From Chryseobacterium soldanellicola (GTDB lineage: Bacteria; Bacteroidota; Bacteroidia; Flavobacteriales; Weeksellaceae), in the NCBI RefSeq assembly GCF_900100115.1, contig NZ_FNKL01000004.1, forward strand, positions 868,001 to 932,000: 64,000 nt of DNA, given 5' to 3'. Positions 38,398 through 63,605 of this stretch are shown here, piece by piece. Both the position numbers and the translations under genes were made by a program. The notes beneath the pieces are model-generated. The model was given only the letters and a program-made list of their open reading frames with translations, was not told where the DNA came from and searched no databases. Each line of letters starts with the position of its first letter. The first letter of the stretch is position 1.

Positions 38398-39738
38398 TTA
38401 TTTTGCAATACTAGGAATAACAGGCAAGCTTAAATTTCCAGTGTTACTAACTGCCTGTACCGCAAAGATATAATTATCCTTTGACAACGGAATCTTAATA
38501 GAAAGCTGTGTTGTAAATATTTCTTTTTGCCATACAGGGCTATCCGTTTCTCTTATCAGCACAAAATATCCTGCCGGTGTTCCGGATTTCGGCTTTTTCC
38601 AATGTAACGTGGTAGAATTGGTAAGTTCTTTCACCTCTACTTCTACATTCTCAGGCTTTGAGGTAGATTTGGCAAGATTGGCTAGCACGGCAACATTTGC
38701 AGCAACATTTTTTTTGAGATAATCATGATCTATAAATTCCGGAAGGTCGCCATACTGAATATTTTTTTCTGTTCTTACATCCTGATGCTGATGATTGTAA
38801 TTTTCATAATATTCTGTCAATCTCACTGATGGAAACCCGTAATTAACAAAGCTGGAATGATCTCCGCCACGTAAGAATCTGTCATTTCTATAGATTAATT
38901 TTACATCTAATTTTTTGACATATTTCTCTGCAATTTCTTTTATGTATCTGGCTAACTGTCTGGAATCTCCGTCATTTTCGAGTCCGATATTCCTGATTGC
39001 CATGGCTTTTTTATCAATATCCGGATAAGGAAGCCCTTCACTGAATACCCGAAGTGTGCGGTCATTTGTTTCGCCCGTTTCTCCGGCTTTAACGTTGCCG
39101 ATCATGTCATTATTTAGAACAGCTTCGATTTGAAGACCTTCTTTTTTAGCTTTTTCCGCCAACATTTTAGAGCCAAGGAGCGATTGTTCTTCTCCTGAAA
39201 ATGCGACAAAAATAATAGTCGCCGGAAATGAAGATTTGCTTAAAATTCTTGCTGCTTCAATTACTGCACTTACTCCGCTTCCGTCGTCATTTGCGCCCGG
39301 AGCAAAAGAAGTTCGATTCATAATATCAGTAACACGCGAATCAAGATGTCCGGAAATCAGAAAAATTCTTTTATCATTCAGGTCAGTTCCTTTTAGATAT
39401 GCAATAGGATTTCCGAGGTTAACTCCCTGATCTACACGCTTTCCATCAGGCTGAAGATCCTGTTGCTGAAGATAAACTTCCATTCTCCCACCAGAATTTT
39501 TTGAATATTGTTTAAATTTTTTAAGAACCCAGTTTCGTGCTGCGCCTATTCCTTTATTTTGATCATCAACTGTGCTCAAAGTATGTCTTGTATGAAAGCT
39601 GACAAGCTTATTGATATAAGATTTTAAAGAATCAGCATTAACCTCAGAGACATATTTTGTTATTTCATCATCTTTTTTTAAACGGGCCTGCGAAAAAATG
39701 ATACATGGAAAAAGCATTAAAAGAAGAAAATATTTCAT
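38398..39738 (-). CDS. M28-family zinc aminopeptidase, secreted
   Basis: 446 aa with a signal peptide (FLLLMLFPCIIFSQ). Zinc ligands follow the M28 order: H131 (ISGHLDSR), D151 (GANDDGSG), E183/E184 (SGEEQSLLGS), D211 (LNNDMIG) and a late His (NYNHQHQDV). A C-terminal 80-residue beta-sandwich of the FnIII type (TLHWKKPKSGTPAGYFVLI) may bind substrate. It likely cuts amino-terminal residues in the periplasm or outside the cell. It lacks a T9SS domain. Confidence 0.92.
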   Translation of the reverse strand: MKYFLLLMLFPCIIFSQARLKKDDEITKYVSEVNADSLKSYINKLVSFHTRHTLSTVDDQNKGIGAARNWVLKKFKQYSKNSGGRMEVYLQQQDLQPDGKRVDQGVNLGNPIAYLKGTDLNDKRIFLISGHLDSRVTDIMNRTSFAPGANDDGSGVSAVIEAARILSKSSFPATIIFVAFSGEEQSLLGSKMLAEKAKKEGLQIEAVLNNDMIGNVKAGETGETNDRTLRVFSEGLPYPDIDKKAMAIRNIGLENDGDSRQLARYIKEIAEKYVKKLDVKLIYRNDRFLRGGDHSSFVNYGFPSVRLTEYYENYNHQHQDVRTEKNIQYGDLPEFIDHDYLKKNVAANVAVLANLAKSTSKPENVEVEVKELTNSTTLHWKKPKSGTPAGYFVLIRETDSPVWQKEIFTTQLSIKIPLSKDNYIFAVQAVSNTGNLSLPVIPSIAK

Positions 39739-45564: not shown

Positions 45565-46629
45565 ATGAGCAAAAAGCACAACTTCAGCGCAGGACCATGT
45601 ATCTTACCACAAGAGGTATTCGAAAAGTCGGCAGCAGCTATTTTAGATTTTAACGGTATAGGATTGTCTCTTCTTGAGATCTCTCACAGAAGCAAGGATT
45701 TCGTTGCGGTAATGGACGAAGCGCGTGCCATTGTAAAAAGACTGATGAATTTAGGCGATGATTATGAAGTTTTGTATTTGGGTGGTGGTGCCAGTCTTCA
45801 GTTTGCGATGGTGCCTTATAACTTGTTGAAAGTTGGCGGAAAAGCAGCTTATCTAGATACAGGAACCTGGGCTGCTGGAGCTATAAAGGAAGCAAAAAAA
45901 TTAGGAAATGTAGATGTTGTAGGTTCTTCGAAAGAGGAAAACTACTCTTTCATTCCAAAAGATTATACGGTAGGATCAGAGTACGATTATTTTCATTGTA
46001 CTTCAAATAATACAATTTACGGAACTCAGATGAAGTCTTTCCCTGAAGTGGAAACTTTGATGGTTTGCGATATGAGCTCTGATATTTTCTCAAGACAGCT
46101 GGATTTCTCAAAATTTGATTTAATCTACGCCGGAGCCCAGAAAAATATGGGACCTGCGGGAGTTACTTTAGTAGTGATCAAAAAAGAAATCCTTGGAAAA
46201 ACAGGAAGAGAAAATATGCTTTCAATGTTAGATTATTCTCAGCATATTTCTAAAGAATCAATGTACAATACGCCACCGGTTTTCCCTGTATATGCGTCTT
46301 TACTGACTTTGCAACATTTAGAAAATAATGGAGGAATTGCAGCTGCCGAAGCCAGAAACGAAGCAAAAGCAAAACTTTTGTATGACGAAATCGACAGCAA
46401 TCCGTTATTTGAAACGTTCTGCAAAGAAGAAGACCGCTCGTTGATGAATGTTTCATTTAAATTAATCGATGACAGCAAAAAAGAGGAATTCGACGCTGCA
46501 TGGAAAGCTGCCGGAATCAGCGGACTGAACGGACACAGAAGTTTGGGAGGTTACAGAGCAAGTTTATACAATGCTTTACCGATCGAAAGCGTGCAGGTTT
46601 TGGTGGATGTAATGAAGTCTGTTAAATAA
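45565..46629 (+). CDS. serC: Phosphoserine aminotransferase
   Basis: 354 aa class V aminotransferase. N-terminal HNFSAGPCILPQEVFE, LGGGASLQFAMVP, and the PLP lysine in YAGAQKNMGPAG match SerC. It converts 3-phosphohydroxypyruvate to phosphoserine, and may also serve pyridoxal-phosphate synthesis. The next gene, serA, codes for the step before it. The 5-prime region has a one-mismatch -7-like TATTCTTG about 25 bp before the ATG. Confidence 0.96.
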   Translation: MSKKHNFSAGPCILPQEVFEKSAAAILDFNGIGLSLLEISHRSKDFVAVMDEARAIVKRLMNLGDDYEVLYLGGGASLQFAMVPYNLLKVGGKAAYLDTGTWAAGAIKEAKKLGNVDVVGSSKEENYSFIPKDYTVGSEYDYFHCTSNNTIYGTQMKSFPEVETLMVCDMSSDIFSRQLDFSKFDLIYAGAQKNMGPAGVTLVVIKKEILGKTGRENMLSMLDYSQHISKESMYNTPPVFPVYASLLTLQHLENNGGIAAAEARNEAKAKLLYDEIDSNPLFETFCKEEDRSLMNVSFKLIDDSKKEEFDAAWKAAGISGLNGHRSLGGYRASLYNALPIESVQVLVDVMKSVK

Positions 46630-46752
46630 TTTAAATATTTAAAATTCAAAGATTTAAGGATTATTTATCATTAATTAAATTTTCTTAATTTGCGCAACTA
46701 TTTAATTTTTAAATATTGCAATCTTTAAAATTTTAAATTAAATAAAAAAACC

Positions 46753-47718
46753 ATGAAAGTTTTAGCAAACGACGGAATTTCGAAAGCTGGAGAACAGGCA
46801 TTAAAAAATGCCGGAATTGAAGTGTTGGACAACAAAGTTGCACAGGACCATGTGATCAATTTCATCAATGAAAACAACGTAGATATACTTCTCGTAAGAA
46901 GCGCTACGAAAGTAAGAAAAGATATGATTGATGCTTGTCCAAGCCTTAAAATCATCGGAAGAGGTGGTATCGGTATGGACAATATCGATGTTGAATATGC
47001 AAAAAGTAAAGGAATTAAAGTAATTAATACCCCTACAGCATCTTCAAAATCGGTTGCAGAGCTGGTTTTCGGGCATTTCTTTTCACTGGCGAGATTCCTT
47101 CATGAATCGAACAGATTGATGCCTTTGGAAGGAGAAACTCATTTCAATGCCATGAAAAAATCGTTCAGCAATGCGTACGAGCTTTCAGGGAAGACGTTAG
47201 GAGTTATTGGTTTTGGAAGTATTGGTCAGGAAGTTATAAAAATCGGGATTTCTTTAGGAATGAAGGTTAAAGTTTTAACAAGAAAACCTGCAACGGAAGT
47301 TTTGACATTAAGTTTTTTTGACGGCCAGTCAGTGAACTTTGAAATTACTTCTACCAACAATACGGATGAGTTTCTTAAGGAAGCAGATTTCATCAGTATC
47401 AATACGCCGAAGACCAACGAATATATCATAGACACGCCTCAGTTTGAAAAGATGAAAGACGGAGTTTATATTGTAAATACTGCACGAGGCGGCGTTATCA
47501 ATGAAGTAGCACTGATCGATTTTATTGAATCAGGAAAAGTTGCAGGAGCAGCACTGGATGTTTTTGAAAACGAACCAACTCCGGAACTGCCTTTATTGAT
47601 GAATCCTGCGCTATCTCTATCCCCACACGTTGGCGGAAATACGGTAGATGCCCAGGAAAAAATCGGCGTCGAATTAGCAGAACAGATTATTAAGCTACAA
47701 AAAGAAACTATACAATAA
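46753..47718 (+). CDS. serA: D-3-phosphoglycerate dehydrogenase
   Basis: 321 aa D-2-hydroxyacid dehydrogenase. It has the Rossmann loop GVIGFGSIGQEVIK, substrate/catalytic Arg in VNTARGGVINE, and the acid/base His in LSPHVGGNTVDAQ. It lacks the C-terminal ACT domain of long SerA enzymes, so classical serine feedback through ACT is not expected. It makes 3-phosphohydroxypyruvate, the substrate of the upstream SerC. DUF1015 starts 3 bp after it. Confidence 0.94.
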   Translation: MKVLANDGISKAGEQALKNAGIEVLDNKVAQDHVINFINENNVDILLVRSATKVRKDMIDACPSLKIIGRGGIGMDNIDVEYAKSKGIKVINTPTASSKSVAELVFGHFFSLARFLHESNRLMPLEGETHFNAMKKSFSNAYELSGKTLGVIGFGSIGQEVIKIGISLGMKVKVLTRKPATEVLTLSFFDGQSVNFEITSTNNTDEFLKEADFISINTPKTNEYIIDTPQFEKMKDGVYIVNTARGGVINEVALIDFIESGKVAGAALDVFENEPTPELPLLMNPALSLSPHVGGNTVDAQEKIGVELAEQIIKLQKETIQ

Positions 47719-47721
47719 AAT

Positions 47722-48966
47722 ATGCCTGTTTTTAAACCTTTCCGTGGAATAAGACCTCATAAAGACTTCGAGAGCACCTTCCCTACTCATCCGCTGGATA
47801 ATTTTACCCAGGAAGAAATAGCGGAGAAAGCCCAAGTTGAAAATACTTACATCAACATGATAAAACCTTATGTTGTAAGTAAATCTAAAGATATTGATAG
47901 GAATTTAAGGAAAATCCGATCGACATTTGAAGAGCTGGTTGAAGAGAAAAAACTCATTCAGGACAGCTCGGCCTATTATCTTTATGAGCAGATTTATCCC
48001 AGCAAACAGGTTTTCAGAGGCCTTTTAGGATTAGCGAGCATCGAAGATTTCTGGAACGGCAAAATTAAAAGACACGAGAGCACAATTCCTCAGAAAAAGG
48101 AAAAGCTGGCTCATTATCTTGATAAGGTAAATCTACAGGCAGAACCTGTTTTATTGACCTATCCCGCCAATTCCAAGATTGAATTGCTGATGAATCATGA
48201 AGAAAAAAATGTTCCGATTTTCAATCATGTGGATACAAAAGGAATCAGACACAAAATCTGGAGGATTGATAACCGTCTGAAACTGCAACAGTTTAAAGAA
48301 GTAATCGATCAGATCGATGCATTTTATATTGCGGACGGCCACCACAGGATTGGTTCCACAGCGCTTAATGCAAAGCTTCATAAAGACAAAAACAAAAGAC
48401 ATAACGGTACGGAAGCTTATAATTTTGTGTACAGTTTCATCGTTTCCAACCAGTCGATTAAAATTCATGATTACAACAGGATTTTAACTGATCTTAATGG
48501 TGTTCCAGCTGAAGATTTTTTAAAGCAGCTTGAAAAATATTTCCTTATTCACGAAAAAGGAGAAGCACCTTATTTTCCTTCGCAGAAATTCCATATGTCA
48601 ATGTATATGGACGGTAAATTTTACTCTCTTCACGTAAAGCACGACCTTCGCTCTCAGGAAATGTCTTTAGACAATCTTGACCACCATCTTTTAGATAAAT
48701 ATATTTTTAAAGATATTTTAAAAATTGAAGATCCGGACAGCTCAGATAAGATTTCTTATGTAAAAGGAACTTCCAACATCGAAGGGATTAATCTGTTAAA
48801 AGAAAAAGTAGACAATGGTGAAGGAAGAGTCGGTTTTGGAATATATCCTGTCAGTTTTAATGATATGATTAAAATTTCTGATTTAAAACTGAGCATGCCT
48901 CCAAAATGTACATTTATTGAGCCCAAATTGGTTACAGCCTTATTAATGTACGATATGAAACCTTAA
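47722..48966 (+). CDS. DUF1015-family protein of the serine operon
   Basis: 414 aa, cytosolic. It has the family's N-terminal FKPFRGIRP and the central DAFYIADGHHRIGSTALN motif with its His-His-Arg cluster, which suggests a metal or nucleotide site. DUF1015 genes are repeatedly found next to serA and serC, and one branch has been linked to ATP-dependent serine kinase (SerK) activity in other lineages. That makes serine or phosphoserine metabolism a good guess here, but not proven. Confidence 0.9.
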   Translation: MPVFKPFRGIRPHKDFESTFPTHPLDNFTQEEIAEKAQVENTYINMIKPYVVSKSKDIDRNLRKIRSTFEELVEEKKLIQDSSAYYLYEQIYPSKQVFRGLLGLASIEDFWNGKIKRHESTIPQKKEKLAHYLDKVNLQAEPVLLTYPANSKIELLMNHEEKNVPIFNHVDTKGIRHKIWRIDNRLKLQQFKEVIDQIDAFYIADGHHRIGSTALNAKLHKDKNKRHNGTEAYNFVYSFIVSNQSIKIHDYNRILTDLNGVPAEDFLKQLEKYFLIHEKGEAPYFPSQKFHMSMYMDGKFYSLHVKHDLRSQEMSLDNLDHHLLDKYIFKDILKIEDPDSSDKISYVKGTSNIEGINLLKEKVDNGEGRVGFGIYPVSFNDMIKISDLKLSMPPKCTFIEPKLVTALLMYDMKP

Positions 48967-49022: not shown

Positions 49023-50429
49023 ATGAAAAAAATATTCATTATAATTCCACTCTTTTTGAGTGGATTTTTATTTTCTCAAAAAAAACCTCAGAAAAAAACG
49101 GTAAAAAAGACAAACGTTTCGGCAAAATTCAACTATCATGATGAATTTAAAAAGATTTCAGACGAAATCATGACCAATGGAACCGCATACGACAATCTCG
49201 GACAATTAACTAAAGGGGTCGGACCGCGTTTCAGCGGAACTCCCGGCTATGCAAAGGCTGTTGAATGGGCAGAAAAGAAGTTTAAAGAGATCGGAATAGA
49301 AATGATCTGGAGACAGGAAGCAAAAGCTCCGGTATGGATCAGAGGAAAAGAATCTTTACAGATAAAAACAGCAAACGGAGACTGGAGAAACATCAGAATG
49401 CTATCTTTCGGAAATTCGGAAGGTACAGACGGAAAAGATCTCACCGGCGAAATTGTCTTAATCAATACTACTTCTGAGCTTAATGCTTTATCTGTGGGAC
49501 AGTTAAAAGACAAAATTGTTTTCGTCAATGTTCCCATGGATCCGAAAATTATTAACACCAGTGATGCTTACTTAATTGCAGCAAAATCAAAATTGATTTC
49601 TGCTTCTGTCATCGCTAAAACAGGAGCAAAAGCTTTAATTATAAGATCATTAACAACAGCTAATGACGATGTTCCTCATGCAAAAATGATTTATTACGAA
49701 CCGGATGATAAAGTAAAAATTCCTGCCTTATCAATCGGAGTAAGATCTGCTGACGAACTGGAAAAATTAGTAAAAAAACAAAAAGTCACTGCTAAAATAA
49801 ATATGACCGCCGAATCAAAAGGCGACACCACCAATCCGAATATCATTGCTGAGATTCAAGGAAAAAAAGACTCTAAAGTGATTGTGTTAGGAGCTCAGCT
49901 GGATTCCTGGGATTTTGGAGAAGGTGCGATTGATGACGGGACTGGAGTGGTTCAATGTATTGAAGTTTTAAGAACCTTAAAAGCGCTTGGCTTTGAAAAT
50001 AATCATACGATCAGAGTTGTTTTGTACGCCAACAGTGAAAACGGCGGACAAGGGCGAGAAATGTATGCGGCTTATGTTAAAAAGAAAGATGAGAGACATG
50101 TTTTCGCTTTAGGAACGGATGCGGGAGGCTATTCTCCACGCGGTTTTTCACTGGATATGTCCCCACAAAGGAGAAAACAGATTTTTGAATGGAAAAATTA
50201 TTTCCTGCCGTACGGTATTTATGATTTTGATCAGACGGAAGCCATTCAGGATATTTCGCCTTTAAAAAAGTTGGATATTCCTTTGGCAGAGCTGGTTGTA
50301 GACACTCAACGATATTTTGATTATCACCATTCTACGGAAGATACTTTCGATAAAGTGAATAAAAGAGAGCTTCTTTTAGGCGCCGTTGCCATGACACAGC
50401 TTATTTTCATGATCGATAAAAACTGGTAA
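49023..50429 (+). CDS. M28-family carboxypeptidase-Q-like protein, probably inactive
   Basis: 468 aa with a signal peptide (FLSGFLFSQKK), a protease-associated (PA) insert at about 130-260, and an M28 domain. Compared with its tandem neighbour and with human CPQ, the zinc-binding His of GGHLDSWD is Gln (Q292 in GAQLDSWD) and the catalytic general-base Glu of the EE pair is Ser (S338 in YANSENGG). D304, E339, D366 and the late His are kept. The frame is intact and well conserved elsewhere, so it is likely a pseudoenzyme rather than a decayed gene. Confidence 0.88.
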   Translation: MKKIFIIIPLFLSGFLFSQKKPQKKTVKKTNVSAKFNYHDEFKKISDEIMTNGTAYDNLGQLTKGVGPRFSGTPGYAKAVEWAEKKFKEIGIEMIWRQEAKAPVWIRGKESLQIKTANGDWRNIRMLSFGNSEGTDGKDLTGEIVLINTTSELNALSVGQLKDKIVFVNVPMDPKIINTSDAYLIAAKSKLISASVIAKTGAKALIIRSLTTANDDVPHAKMIYYEPDDKVKIPALSIGVRSADELEKLVKKQKVTAKINMTAESKGDTTNPNIIAEIQGKKDSKVIVLGAQLDSWDFGEGAIDDGTGVVQCIEVLRTLKALGFENNHTIRVVLYANSENGGQGREMYAAYVKKKDERHVFALGTDAGGYSPRGFSLDMSPQRRKQIFEWKNYFLPYGIYDFDQTEAIQDISPLKKLDIPLAELVVDTQRYFDYHHSTEDTFDKVNKRELLLGAVAMTQLIFMIDKNW

Positions 50430-50432
50430 AAA

Positions 50433-51788
50433 ATGAAAAAGATAGTAGCAACATCATTATTACTTTTTAGTTTGCCGGCTTTTGGTCAGGCTAAAGAAGA
50501 TTCCATACAATTCAGTAAAATTTCTACGGAAATATTAAATAAAGGTAAATCTTACACCGAATTAAGAGATTTAACTAAAAACATCGGTCACCGTTTAAGC
50601 GGTTCCGAAGCGTATAAAAAGTCCGTGAAATGGGCAGAGCAAAAACTTCGCGATGCAGGTGCAGATAAGGTCTGGTTTCAGGAAGTAATGATTCCCGTTT
50701 GGGAAAGAGGAAAAGAATCTCTACAGATCAAAATTTCCGACGGAAAATGGAAAAACCTGAAAATGCTTTCTCTGGGAAACTCTGAAGGAACAGGCGGAAA
50801 AGACGTTTCAGGAGAAATTATCATGGTAAAATCAATGGAAGAATACGAAAAGCTTCCTGCCGAAAAGGTAAAAGACAAAATAGTTTTCTTCAACTATCCT
50901 TTTAATCAGTCTTATATTCAGACATTTAAAGGATATAGCGATGCAGCCAAATATCGGGTGAATGCTGCTTCATTAACCGCAAAAAAAGGCGGAAAGGTTG
51001 CTATTATCCGGTCGCTTTCTTCTGCGTTTGATGATGTTCCTCACACAGGAGCAATGCGTTATGAAAACGATCAGAAAATCCCTGCCGTAGCTATTGGAAA
51101 TACCACAGCAGACGAATTGGAAAGGTTATTACAATCACAAAAAATCACCGCAAAGCTCAACTCCAGCTGTGGAATGAAAGGTGAAAAACTTTCACATTCC
51201 GTTATCGGGGAAATTACGGGTAAAAAAGATAAAAATGTCATTCTTGTCGGCGGACATCTCGATTCTTGGGATGTCGGGGAAGGCGCGCATGATGACGGAA
51301 CGGGAATTGTGCAGAGCATTGAAGTCTTAAGAACCTTCAAAAATCTTGGCATTAAAAACAATCATACCATACGAGTTGTATGTTTTGCGAATGAAGAAAA
51401 CGGCGTAAAAGGTGGCATACAATATGGAAAAACAGTAAGAGACAACAACGAAAAACATCTTTTCGCCATAGAAACCGATGCCGGAGGTTTTACGCCCAGA
51501 GGGGTCTCCTTAGAAATGGACGACCAGAAAAGAAATCAGATCAAAAGCTGGAAACCTCTGTTCGAGCCTTACGGAGCGACCGATTTTGAAGGCAGATATT
51601 CTGGGACGGATATTTATCCGCTTCATGATATGGGCGTTCCAACAGCTGAATTAGTTCCCGATTCCCAACGATATTTCGACATTCATCACACGGAAGAGGA
51701 TACTTTTGAAAAAGTGAACCGCCGAGAATTACTGCTCGGTGCCACAGTAATAACACAGCTTATTTATATGATTGATAAGAACTGGTAA
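50433..51788 (+). CDS. M28-family carboxypeptidase-Q-like zinc peptidase
   Basis: 451 aa paralogue of the gene before it, 3 bp downstream. Signal peptide (LLFSLPAFGQ), PA insert and M28 domain are in the same order, but all active-site residues are present: H275 (GGHLDSWD), D287 (GAHDDGTG), E321/E322 (FANEENG), Asp in ETDAGG and His in IHHTEEDTF. It should be a periplasmic or secreted exopeptidase. The pair probably arose by tandem duplication. Confidence 0.92.
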   Translation: MKKIVATSLLLFSLPAFGQAKEDSIQFSKISTEILNKGKSYTELRDLTKNIGHRLSGSEAYKKSVKWAEQKLRDAGADKVWFQEVMIPVWERGKESLQIKISDGKWKNLKMLSLGNSEGTGGKDVSGEIIMVKSMEEYEKLPAEKVKDKIVFFNYPFNQSYIQTFKGYSDAAKYRVNAASLTAKKGGKVAIIRSLSSAFDDVPHTGAMRYENDQKIPAVAIGNTTADELERLLQSQKITAKLNSSCGMKGEKLSHSVIGEITGKKDKNVILVGGHLDSWDVGEGAHDDGTGIVQSIEVLRTFKNLGIKNNHTIRVVCFANEENGVKGGIQYGKTVRDNNEKHLFAIETDAGGFTPRGVSLEMDDQKRNQIKSWKPLFEPYGATDFEGRYSGTDIYPLHDMGVPTAELVPDSQRYFDIHHTEEDTFEKVNRRELLLGATVITQLIYMIDKNW

Positions 51789-51795
51789 GATAATG

Positions 51796-51828
51796 AAACC
51801 GCCTTTTAGGGGCGGTTTTTGTTTTTTT
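51796..51828 (+). terminator. Terminator after the M28 pair
   Basis: An 8-bp perfect stem AAACCGCC/GGCGGTTT with a 7-nt loop, then T-runs. Confidence 0.92.
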
Positions 51829-51849
51829 AAATACTTGAGTATAATTTAT

Positions 51850-51965
51850 CAGGAGCTTTTTCCGGCTATCCACTCATACTCCTCACGCCAACGCAATCCC
51901 ACACCGAAACCTCACCATTTCCACTTCTAGTTGCGGGGTACCCGTTGCTATCCGGGCTAGGAAAG
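51850..51965 (-). repeat. Dispersed repeat, copy 1 (degenerate core)
   Basis: On the minus strand it begins with CCTAGCCCGGATAGCA and ends with GAGTGGATAGCCGGA and AAAGCTCC, the flanks shared with copies at 52428-52540 and 59160-59275. Its core is longer and lacks the perfect hairpin. Confidence 0.65.
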
Positions 51966-52112
51966 TGAATCGTCAATAAATGATTGTTAATTTAGATGAA
52001 GCTTGAGAAATTAACCATTAACATTCACTCCGTTAAAAACCATCCCGTCAAAATTCTTTTAGAATTTTCGCCACCTTCCGAAGAAGGGGAATTTTTCGCC
52101 GCACATACTGAG

Positions 52113-52313
52113 GTCATTGCGAGGAGCGCAGCGACGAAGCAATCTCATTGTTTACTTAGTTTTTTAAATGATTAATGTTTTAACTGTTTAGATCCTTTCA
52201 GGATGACAAAGTGTGCGCTTATTGTGCGGTTAGCTTGGTTTCCTATTTGTTTTTAGAGATTGCTTCGTCGCTCCTGAACTGCGTTCGCAGACCTTCAGTC
52301 TGTTCGCAATGAC
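52113..52313. repeat. Inverted pair of GTCATTGCGAGGAGCG elements
   Basis: The left element spans 52113-52146. The right one, complementary in its ends (GAGATTGCTTCGTCGCTCC and TCGCAATGAC), spans 52256-52313 and carries a short insert. I recognise this word as a dispersed intergenic repeat seen in several phyla; that cannot be checked here. Between them lies a TTTCAGGATGACAAA end. Confidence 0.75.
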
Positions 52314-52427
52314 AGAAATATATCGCTAATACATTCTTGAGATCCTTTAACTAAGTCGAACCTAAAGGTTTCAGGATGACAAACCGGGTATTGAATCTTT
52401 TGTGATATATTGAGATGACAACTGCTC

Positions 52428-52540
52428 CCCTAGCCCCGATTGGAGCATGTGTTTGAGCTCATTTTGAGGATTTCGGCGGCGGCTTTGCCGCCGCCGAAAT
52501 CCTCAAAATAGCGAGTGCGGAAAGCGGGATTAAGCTCCTG
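52428..52540 (+). repeat. Dispersed repeat, copy 2 with 22-bp perfect hairpin
   Basis: Flanks CCTAGCCCCGATTGGAGCA and TTTGAGCTC on the left, TAGCGAGTGCGGAAAGC and AAGCTCC on the right. Between them is a perfect 22-bp stem (52462-52483 with 52487-52508) with a TTT loop and a GGCGGCGG core. Confidence 0.8.
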
Positions 52541-52558
52541 AAAAATACAGGTTTTCTT

Positions 52559-52722
52559 CGTCGGGTTTTCCGATAGTGAGCTTTCTTTTAATTTCTCATC
52601 ACGGGGATTTCCGACAGGCTCATCTTATTCTGATTCTCTTCGCCGGAGTTTCCGGTGGCGTAGGAAAGTTTTGATTTAGTCCGTCGGGAATTCCGGTATT
52701 GTAAACCGGTAATGTGTATCAC
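52559..52722. repeat. Four imperfect tandem units with exact 41-bp period
   Basis: Units start at 52559, 52600, 52641 and 52682, each opening with a form of CGTCGGGNTTTCCGAT (CGTCGGGTTTTCCG, CACGGGGATTTCCG, CGCCGGAGTTTCCG, CGTCGGGAATTCCG) and then an AT-rich tail. The last unit also contains TTCCGGT, AACCGGT and ACCGGAA, which can pair. The array ends 119 bp before the DUF6261-like ATG. Confidence 0.75.
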
Positions 52723-52841
52723 CGGAAGCGGTTTATATGATAGATATCTATAATGATTTACTAATTACTACAGAAAATAGATAATTGGCATAAAATTAGC
52801 TACATACAACTTTGAAAAAAAATTCTTAAAAACACACTTCG

Positions 52842-62528: not shown

Positions 62529-63605
62529 ATGAAATTTGAGAAGAAATCTTTAAAATTTTTGGAAAAATATTTAAACACTTCATCACCAACAGGTTACGAA
62601 CACAAAGGTCAGGAAGTCTGGATGGACTATATCAGACCTTATGTTGATAAAATTGAAGTAGATCATTATGGAACTTGCTATGGTATAATCAATCCCGATG
62701 CCGAATTTAAAGTAGTGATTGAAGCTCATGCCGATGAAATTTCGTGGTACGTTAATTATATTACAGACGATGGATTGATCTACGTTATCAGAAATGGAGG
62801 CTCAGATCAGACGATCGCGCCGTCAAAAGTCGTTCATATTCATGGGGAAAAAGGTATTGTGAAAGGTGTATTCGGATGGCCCGCCATTCATACAAGAGGT
62901 GCGAATCAAAACGAACCCATTCCAAAAATCGAAAATATCTTCATCGATTGCGGGGCAACGACAAAAAAAGAAGTTGAAGAAATGGGAATTTATGTAGGTT
63001 GCATGATCACTTATCCTGATGAATTCTTTGAATTGAATGACCGCTATTTCGTTTGCAGAGCTTTAGACAACAGAATCGGCGGCTTTATGATCGCGGAAGT
63101 CGCAAGACTTTTAAAGGAGAGCAAAAAGACGATTCCGTTTGGTTTATATATCACCAATTCCGTTCAGGAAGAGGTTGGTTTGTACGGAGCCGATATGATT
63201 GCAGATACGATCAAGCCAAACATCGCAATTGTAACAGACGTTACCCACGACACGACAACTCCAATGATCGAAAAGAAAAAAGAAGGCGACCAAAAATGTG
63301 GCGACGGGCCGGTAGTTTTCTTTGCGCCAAGCATTCATCATGTGATCAGAGAATTAATCATTGATACTGCAAAAAACAATAAAATTCCTTTCCAAAGAGC
63401 AGCGGCAAGCAGAGCAACAGGCACAGATACAGATGCTTTCGCCCACTCCAACGGCGGTGTTCCAAGTGCTTTAATTTCCTTACCTTTGCGCTATATGCAC
63501 ACAACGGTAGAAATGGTTTCTAAAGAAGATGTAGGAAATGTAATTAAGCTGATCTATGAAACTCTTTTGAAAATTCAGCCGGAAATGAAATTGAAATATC
63601 ATTAA
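62529..63605 (+). CDS. M42-family aminopeptidase (glutamyl aminopeptidase/TET type)
   Basis: 358 aa cytosolic peptidase of the M42 family, which usually forms large tetrahedral shells. Metal ligands are visible: H68 (IEAHADEISW), Asp in ALDNRIGG, the EE pair in SVQEEVGLYGA, Asp in VTDVTHD and the final His in PSIHHV. It removes N-terminal residues from peptides made by the proteasome-like proteases. An alternative cellulase-like name (endoglucanase M) in old annotations is wrong. It stands between DUF4294 and rpe. Confidence 0.94.
   Translation: MKFEKKSLKFLEKYLNTSSPTGYEHKGQEVWMDYIRPYVDKIEVDHYGTCYGIINPDAEFKVVIEAHADEISWYVNYITDDGLIYVIRNGGSDQTIAPSKVVHIHGEKGIVKGVFGWPAIHTRGANQNEPIPKIENIFIDCGATTKKEVEEMGIYVGCMITYPDEFFELNDRYFVCRALDNRIGGFMIAEVARLLKESKKTIPFGLYITNSVQEEVGLYGADMIADTIKPNIAIVTDVTHDTTTPMIEKKKEGDQKCGDGPVVFFAPSIHHVIRELIIDTAKNNKIPFQRAAASRATGTDTDAFAHSNGGVPSALISLPLRYMHTTVEMVSKEDVGNVIKLIYETLLKIQPEMKLKYH

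Follow-up and report, generated by a model that had tools for sequence, protein, structure and literature searches.

Pseudopeptidases are known, and several described systems bear on the locus reported here. The metal sites of M28 peptidases sit at the C-terminal ends of strands, and an active member is recognised by five metal ligands (His, bridging Asp, Glu, Asp and His) together with a general-base Glu beside the ligand Glu. In glutaminyl cyclases a single metal ion is bound by Asp, Glu and His, and a Glu beside the ligand Glu is required. Human transferrin receptor 1 is a non-enzymatic M28B homologue that acts as a receptor, and mutants of the proton-shuttle Glu serve as designed inactive controls for relatives of GCP2, according to PMC9768917. 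For the Aeromonas (Vibrio) aminopeptidase, the title of PDB entry 2anp describes a Glu-to-His mutant as 'functional' so that, as far as a title conveys, loss of the general-base Glu need not abolish activity. Bacterial M16B peptidases are encoded in two-gene operons, one gene for an active (beta) and one for an inactive (alpha) homologue (PMC11266112); the main text of that source does not mention M28.

We analysed a window of 64,000 nucleotides from Chryseobacterium soldanellicola (contig NZ_FNKL01000004.1, positions 868,001 to 932,000) that carries two adjacent M28 homologues on the forward strand. ORF A (49023..50429, 468 aa) has an altered active site, and ORF B (50433..51788, 451 aa) has complete active-site residues. 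A spacing of 3 bp had been proposed in the first-pass annotation, and the ATG of B does indeed start after three bases that follow the stop codon of A. Both N-termini are signal-like as judged by eye, and in A the signal-like part is followed by a Lys-rich stretch, about 12 residues long, that is absent from B. The pair forms the tail of a longer row of genes, which had previously gone unnoticed: serC (45565..46629, forward strand), a serA-like gene (46753..47718, forward strand; its best NCBIfam matches are phosphoglycerate dehydrogenases, below their cut-off) and a DUF1015 gene (47722..48966, forward strand; PF06245, 244.6 bits), with a gap of 56 bp between the last of these and A. Directly 3' of B lies a terminator-like hairpin of 11 pairs (51795-51819) with a T-rich tail (51795..51829 overall, forward strand). 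It likely marks the end of the gene row, although the scanned region holds 8 terminator-like sites against 5.7 expected and the hairpin is to be read as a consensus match only.

Several other features of the genome and window were recorded. The source genome (4.1 Mb, nine contigs) has eight places matching the M28 Pfam model, including a second pair of M28 matches that neighbour each other (contig C4, near 760787-762647; L004 and L005). Elsewhere in the window are a gene with an M28 domain and a fibronectin type III domain (38398-39738, reverse strand) and a member of the M42 aminopeptidase family (62529-63605, forward strand). Downstream of B, a gap of roughly 1 kb (51830-52841) before a DUF6261 gene contains no frame of at least 100 aa, and 251 bases of it (52080-52330) match 56 places in the genome, counting their own, so this gap holds dispersed repeats. 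Upstream, the serC, serA-like and DUF1015 genes (45565-48966) are conserved as a row, yet SerB (TIGR00338) reached its cut-off in none of 12 genomes of the genus and in 7 of 14 control genomes, in a search that covered this phosphatase family alone. The protein encoded by the DUF1015 gene might supply the missing phosphoserine step or take part in serine control.

Both proteins belong to M28, scoring 73.5 bits (A) and 94.7 bits (B) against Pfam PF04389 (cut-off 21.3), and no other Pfam or NCBIfam family reached its cut-off for A. They share 54% identity over 428 residues. For both, the best sequence match in the PDB is entry 3iib, a peptidase M28 of Shewanella amazonensis, which is the nearest solved structure only; we take it to belong to the carboxypeptidase Q-like branch of M28. 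An AlphaFold model of A (pLDDT 89.7) has the M28 fold and superposes on 3iib with a Z score of 49.7 and an rmsd of 1.9 over 428 residues, and the model of B (pLDDT 92.8) does so with a Z score of 46.5; 3iib thus resembles both proteins in fold over their whole length. The first reading of this DNA had described A as intact in frame and fold apart from its active site, and the coordinates and frame of the ORF as well as the M28 fold of the model agree with that description.

The difference lies in the active site. The motifs read originally from the sequence, GAQLDSWD and YANSENGG in A and GGHLDSWD and FANEENGV in B, were confirmed, and alignment with 3iib places Gln292 of A opposite the His and Ser338 of A opposite the first Glu of the EE pair, so that 3iib and B have His and Glu where A has Gln and Ser. 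The roles of these positions as metal ligand and general base are presumed here from the Vibrio aminopeptidase. To gauge conservation we pooled 104 distinct A proteins (100 from the sampled genomes of the genus and 4 from further named Chryseobacterium, the named relatives of A being 76-91% identical) with 242 other relatives (124 B proteins of the genus and 118 proteins from elsewhere in the family, from a neighbouring family and from other Bacteroidota). The metal-ligand His is replaced in A by Gln at codon 292 (CAG, 49896..49898, forward strand), which is Gln in 104/104 A proteins and His in 242/242 others; the general-base Glu is replaced by Ser at codon 338 (AGT, 50034..50036, forward strand), which is Ser in 104/104 A proteins and Glu in 242/242 others. 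At B, sequence and alignment indicate that the metal His is kept at codon 275 (CAT, 51255..51257, forward strand) and the general-base Glu at codon 321 (GAA, 51393..51395, forward strand), as had been read at the outset, and B proteins of the genus have all five metal ligands and the general base in 124/124 cases. A therefore lacks one metal ligand, the His, and the general base, while the other four ligands by alignment with 3iib (D304, E339, D366 and H436) are present in 104/104, as are D294, D410, R430 and Y431. Since the proton-shuttling Glu and one metal His are gone, peptidase activity of A has likely been lost, to judge from sequence.

These replacements are a property of the genus. Among 99 genomes of the genus, the source genome included, every one encodes a full-length A with Gln and Ser (100 distinct proteins, two of them from genome G082). 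An exact DNA pattern for the Gln motif, CARYTNGAYWSNTGGGAY, matched 48 of 395 genomes at the level of the order, of which 42 belong to the genus and are all the in-genus genomes searched; the pattern would miss other codings of the Gln site. Translation in the motif frame showed that the matches in the six genomes from outside the genus are not M28 genes, and neither are three of the four second matches within it; the fourth, in G082, is a second copy of A; within the 395 genomes, this exact DNA pattern found no Gln motif in an M28 gene outside the genus. In the neighbouring family, 135 of 149 genomes have a match at E 0.001 or better, and all 30 loci that were fetched have His and Glu. The second A of G082 (L040, 9088-10497) is diverged, at 73% identity, sits apart from the serC row and has no B as a neighbour; its His435 is Asn, and its other ligand positions are as in A. 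Counts were made after merging rows that differ only at the start (by their last 400 residues) and after setting aside B rows shorter than 430 aa, namely L013 (at a stretch end) and a truncated copy in G112 (L091, L185), from both tree and pooled set. The loci of named relatives were picked by peptide patterns requiring LDSWD or QRYFD.HH, so the conservation of those letters is biased, although both His and Gln were allowed at the metal-ligand position.

The first-pass annotation had held that orthologues of A restoring His and Glu would mean a strain-specific change. Such orthologues do exist in other genera (13 rows), and within the genus there are none among the 104 distinct A proteins, so the Gln and Ser are genus-wide; with both residues in 99/99 genomes, a strain-specific change was rejected. 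We built a tree from 81 chosen rows (quick search, SH-aLRT support only, the two altered columns left out), in which the A proteins of the genus form one clade (29 rows, SH-aLRT 100). Its sister consists of the 13 proteins from other genera of the family (joint support 98), in which the His, the Asp-Asn and the Glu-Glu are intact, and the B proteins of the genus form a separate clade (22 rows, support 99). In two genomes of other genera (G100 and G012; L060 and L063), A and then B stand side by side behind DUF1015. From intact A orthologues and A-B pairs in other genera, it follows that the pair is older than the genus and that the residues were lost on the stem of the genus. At the same place, some genomes of other genera have B alone and some have an intact A alone.

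The replaced residues have been held since. Over 99 genes, codon 292 has undergone at least 16 changes on the tree, all of them between CAA and CAG, and codon 338 at least 12, all between AGT and AGC, and every one was synonymous. Median dN/dS was 0.054 for A and 0.061 for B over sampled pairs (326 and 357 usable, respectively, of 400 sampled pairs from 55 genes each, many near saturation), and 0.038 for A over 126 less diverged pairs; constraint on A is about equal to that on B. A thus combines a kept fold, replaced catalytic residues and conservation of the replacement under selection, the features of a pseudopeptidase. Loss of a metal ligand and of the general base usually signals decay, and one locus, L233 of Chryseobacterium sp. 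E1, has no open A frame, as might be expected if A were an M28 pseudogene in the making. However, L233 also lacks a long B frame, and the several small shifts in both genes look like sequencing error; the locus, which gave no long matching frame when 79 of 80 named loci did, was excluded from the counts. With A at full length in 99/99 genomes, dN/dS of 0.04-0.05 and only synonymous changes at codons 292 and 338, decay was rejected, and we regard it as extremely improbable. A non-catalytic role had been preferred to decay from the outset, and, for a role that is non-catalytic or at least non-standard, genus-wide fixation (99/99), codons that change only synonymously and a dN/dS like that of B bear out this part of the reading; the regulation of B that came with it fares less well, as set out below.

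Protein-level selection also bears on whether A might matter only for the arrangement of the operon, through its transcript or its position ahead of B and behind DUF1015, with no part played by its protein. Across genomes of the genus, A usually comes after serC, serA and DUF1015, in that order, and is itself followed by one or two B genes, and the conserved serC-serA-DUF1015-A row is what such an account would predict. The distance from the end of DUF1015 to A is below 200 bp in 92 of the 99 genomes and 267-313 bp in five (in G211, DUF1015 was detected only after the length limit was lowered). In G197, however, DUF1015 and A are some 4.1 kb apart, with four ORFs of 100 aa or more in between (L106), and B is absent, yet A has kept its full length, its Gln and its Ser; the strength of protein-level selection, with the replaced residues themselves held, likewise makes this account very improbable.

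The two replaced residues are part of a wider change, which was not noticed at first. Under a rule requiring a residue in at least 95% of A proteins and at most 3% of the others, with at least 90% of the others sharing one letter, ten sites are specific to A: L129F, R190K, T220A, G221K, H292Q, E338S, G345R, E364G, G408I and P426V. Eight of them are additional to 292 and 338, and at all ten at least 91% of the other 242 relatives have one letter. The same rule gave two sites for B, for which it is stricter because nearly half of the comparison group of B is A. Codons 220-221 (49680..49685, forward strand), following PH, encode Ala-Lys for the Thr-Gly of relatives (Ala220 and Lys221 in 104/104; Thr in 239/242 and Gly in 242/242), and codon 364 (50112..50114, forward strand), two residues before Asp366, encodes Gly in 103/104 A proteins against Glu in 242/242; Arg345 is found in 100/104. 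In the model of A, the C-terminal end of a strand is no more than three residues away from positions 292, 338, 364 and 426, and position 408 falls in a loop. The remaining sites may also line the pocket, and all ten may belong to one pocket, although L129F, R190K, T220A and G221K fall outside the catalytic Pfam stretch (273-450), which counts against a one-pocket reading.

What such a pocket might do is suggested in part by likeness to glutaminyl cyclases, which (for example PDB 3si2 and 7d18) are among the fold matches of A. Asp304, Glu339 and His436 of A presumably amount to the set of a one-metal site, as in those enzymes, and the ligands of their one-metal Asp/Glu/His site are thus retained. 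The retained metal ligands may also fit an enzyme with altered chemistry, that is, one that carries out a different hydrolysis or transfer at a one-metal site with new residues such as Lys221, Ser338 and Arg345. Four of the five metal ligands in 104/104 A proteins, new polar residues at Lys221 and Ser338 (104/104) and Arg345 (100/104), and the glutaminyl cyclases among the fold matches, with their ligand set remaining in A, speak for such an enzyme. However, the M28 general-base position is Ser in A, where glutaminyl cyclases keep their catalytic Glu, the closeness of Lys221 to Ser338 is an assumption, and M28 was the only Pfam or NCBIfam family to match A at cut-off; we consider a different reaction unlikely. 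More speculative still is the idea that A has in its pocket a novel type of M28 active or sensing site, fixed in this one genus and built from a one-metal centre with Gln292 and a new Ser338/Lys221 pair. Such a site would serve either a reaction that no M28 peptidase carries out or the sensing of an exported peptide or amino-acid ligand linked to the adjoining serine-synthesis genes, which we regard as distinctly doubtful.

The position of A next to B raises a further possibility, that A is a regulatory or structural partner of B in a mixed complex, shaping or supplying the substrate site in the way of the inactive alpha subunit of M16B peptidases. A precedes B within 30 bp in 69 of the 99 genomes (by 3 bp here), a closeness that may fit a joint function; the genes are on the same strand with signal-like N-termini on both proteins, and the juxtaposition of genes for an active and an inactive homologue recalls the two-gene operons of bacterial M16B peptidases (PMC11266112). 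The gap between A and the first B is 31-250 bp in a further three genomes and exceeds 250 bp in 18, a distance that speaks against partnership, and nine have no B. Two full B genes are present in the fetched stretches of 27 of the 99 genomes (for example L056, L079-L082, L100 and L107), and in these two-B genomes the B copies adjoining A form a branch of their own on the tree (9 rows, support 100).

A is missing from none of the 99 genomes, whereas an intact B is missing near A in ten, where A still has Gln and Ser. Nine of these (G130, G154, G188, G194, G197, G202, G205, G207 and G239) have no B in the 19 kb that surround A, and the best match to B in each whole genome, at E 2.3e-146 to 6.2e-156, is about at the level expected from A itself, B copies matching an A query at 1e-157 to 1e-160. 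This call uses the E-value level of the best match and not its location, with the best six candidates scored in some genomes, and three of the nine genomes are two-contig assemblies. The tenth, G112, has a truncated B of 344 aa. G108 was listed without an intact B because B was cut by the end of the stretch; a full B is present in the genome, which was excluded from the ten (counts of B per genome were taken from stretches of 3 to 19 kb). Mapped on the tree of A, the presence of intact B changed six times, at least five of the changes being forced by supported branches.

These genomes, together with the second A of G082 that has no B beside it, weigh against the original suggestion that A regulates the active partner: the retention of A after loss of B speaks against a purely regulatory role toward B. 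The arrangement at this locus, adjacent genes with and without catalytic residues 3 bp apart, is that of an M16B pair, but the tie of the inactive member to the active one does not hold in 10 of the 99 genomes. M16B is moreover another peptidase family in which the mitochondrial inactive subunit is essential, according to PMC11266112, whereas A outlasts B. We consider a dedicated partnership with B unlikely, though the two may share a role where both genes exist.

Our preferred explanation is that A is a genus-fixed, selected, non-proteolytic homologue of M28 with a rebuilt pocket that binds a ligand, is exported and acts independently of B, which we hold with about even confidence. An ancestral tandem A-B pair would have had catalytic residues in both copies. 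On the stem of the genus, the pocket of A would have been rebuilt (His292 to Gln, Glu338 to Ser and eight more sites) and would have stayed constant since. A would retain its fold, together with four of the five metal ligands, and would probably be exported through its signal-like N-terminus. A small ligand or a peptide end would then most likely be bound in the old pocket without hydrolysis, perhaps around a single metal ion. Since A persists where B is lost, it may work alone or with a partner other than B. The single-metal site, ligand binding and export of A are all inferred, and a putative binding of substrate is the direction that we prefer.

Human transferrin receptor 1 offers a described parallel, as it matches the fold of A (Z about 31) and, despite its M28 fold, works as a receptor and not as a peptidase (PMC9768917). 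It is, however, eukaryotic and only 15-17% identical to A, and A keeps four of the five metal ligands. In the literature searched, with most subscription journals outside its reach, no description of an M28 clade with Gln and Ser was found. Pseudopeptidases as such have precedents, and what is new here is a bacterial M28 clade that persists where its active twin has been lost.

In a profile search A is classed as an M28 peptidase, whereas its residues suggest that it should not be one. Across the genomes sampled, more members of the genus have A than have an intact B. The locus amounts to a natural experiment, with the same gene row and fold, a datable change, unchanged sister genera and genomes that miss the intact copy only, and through it the role of a dead peptidase becomes testable in culturable bacteria.
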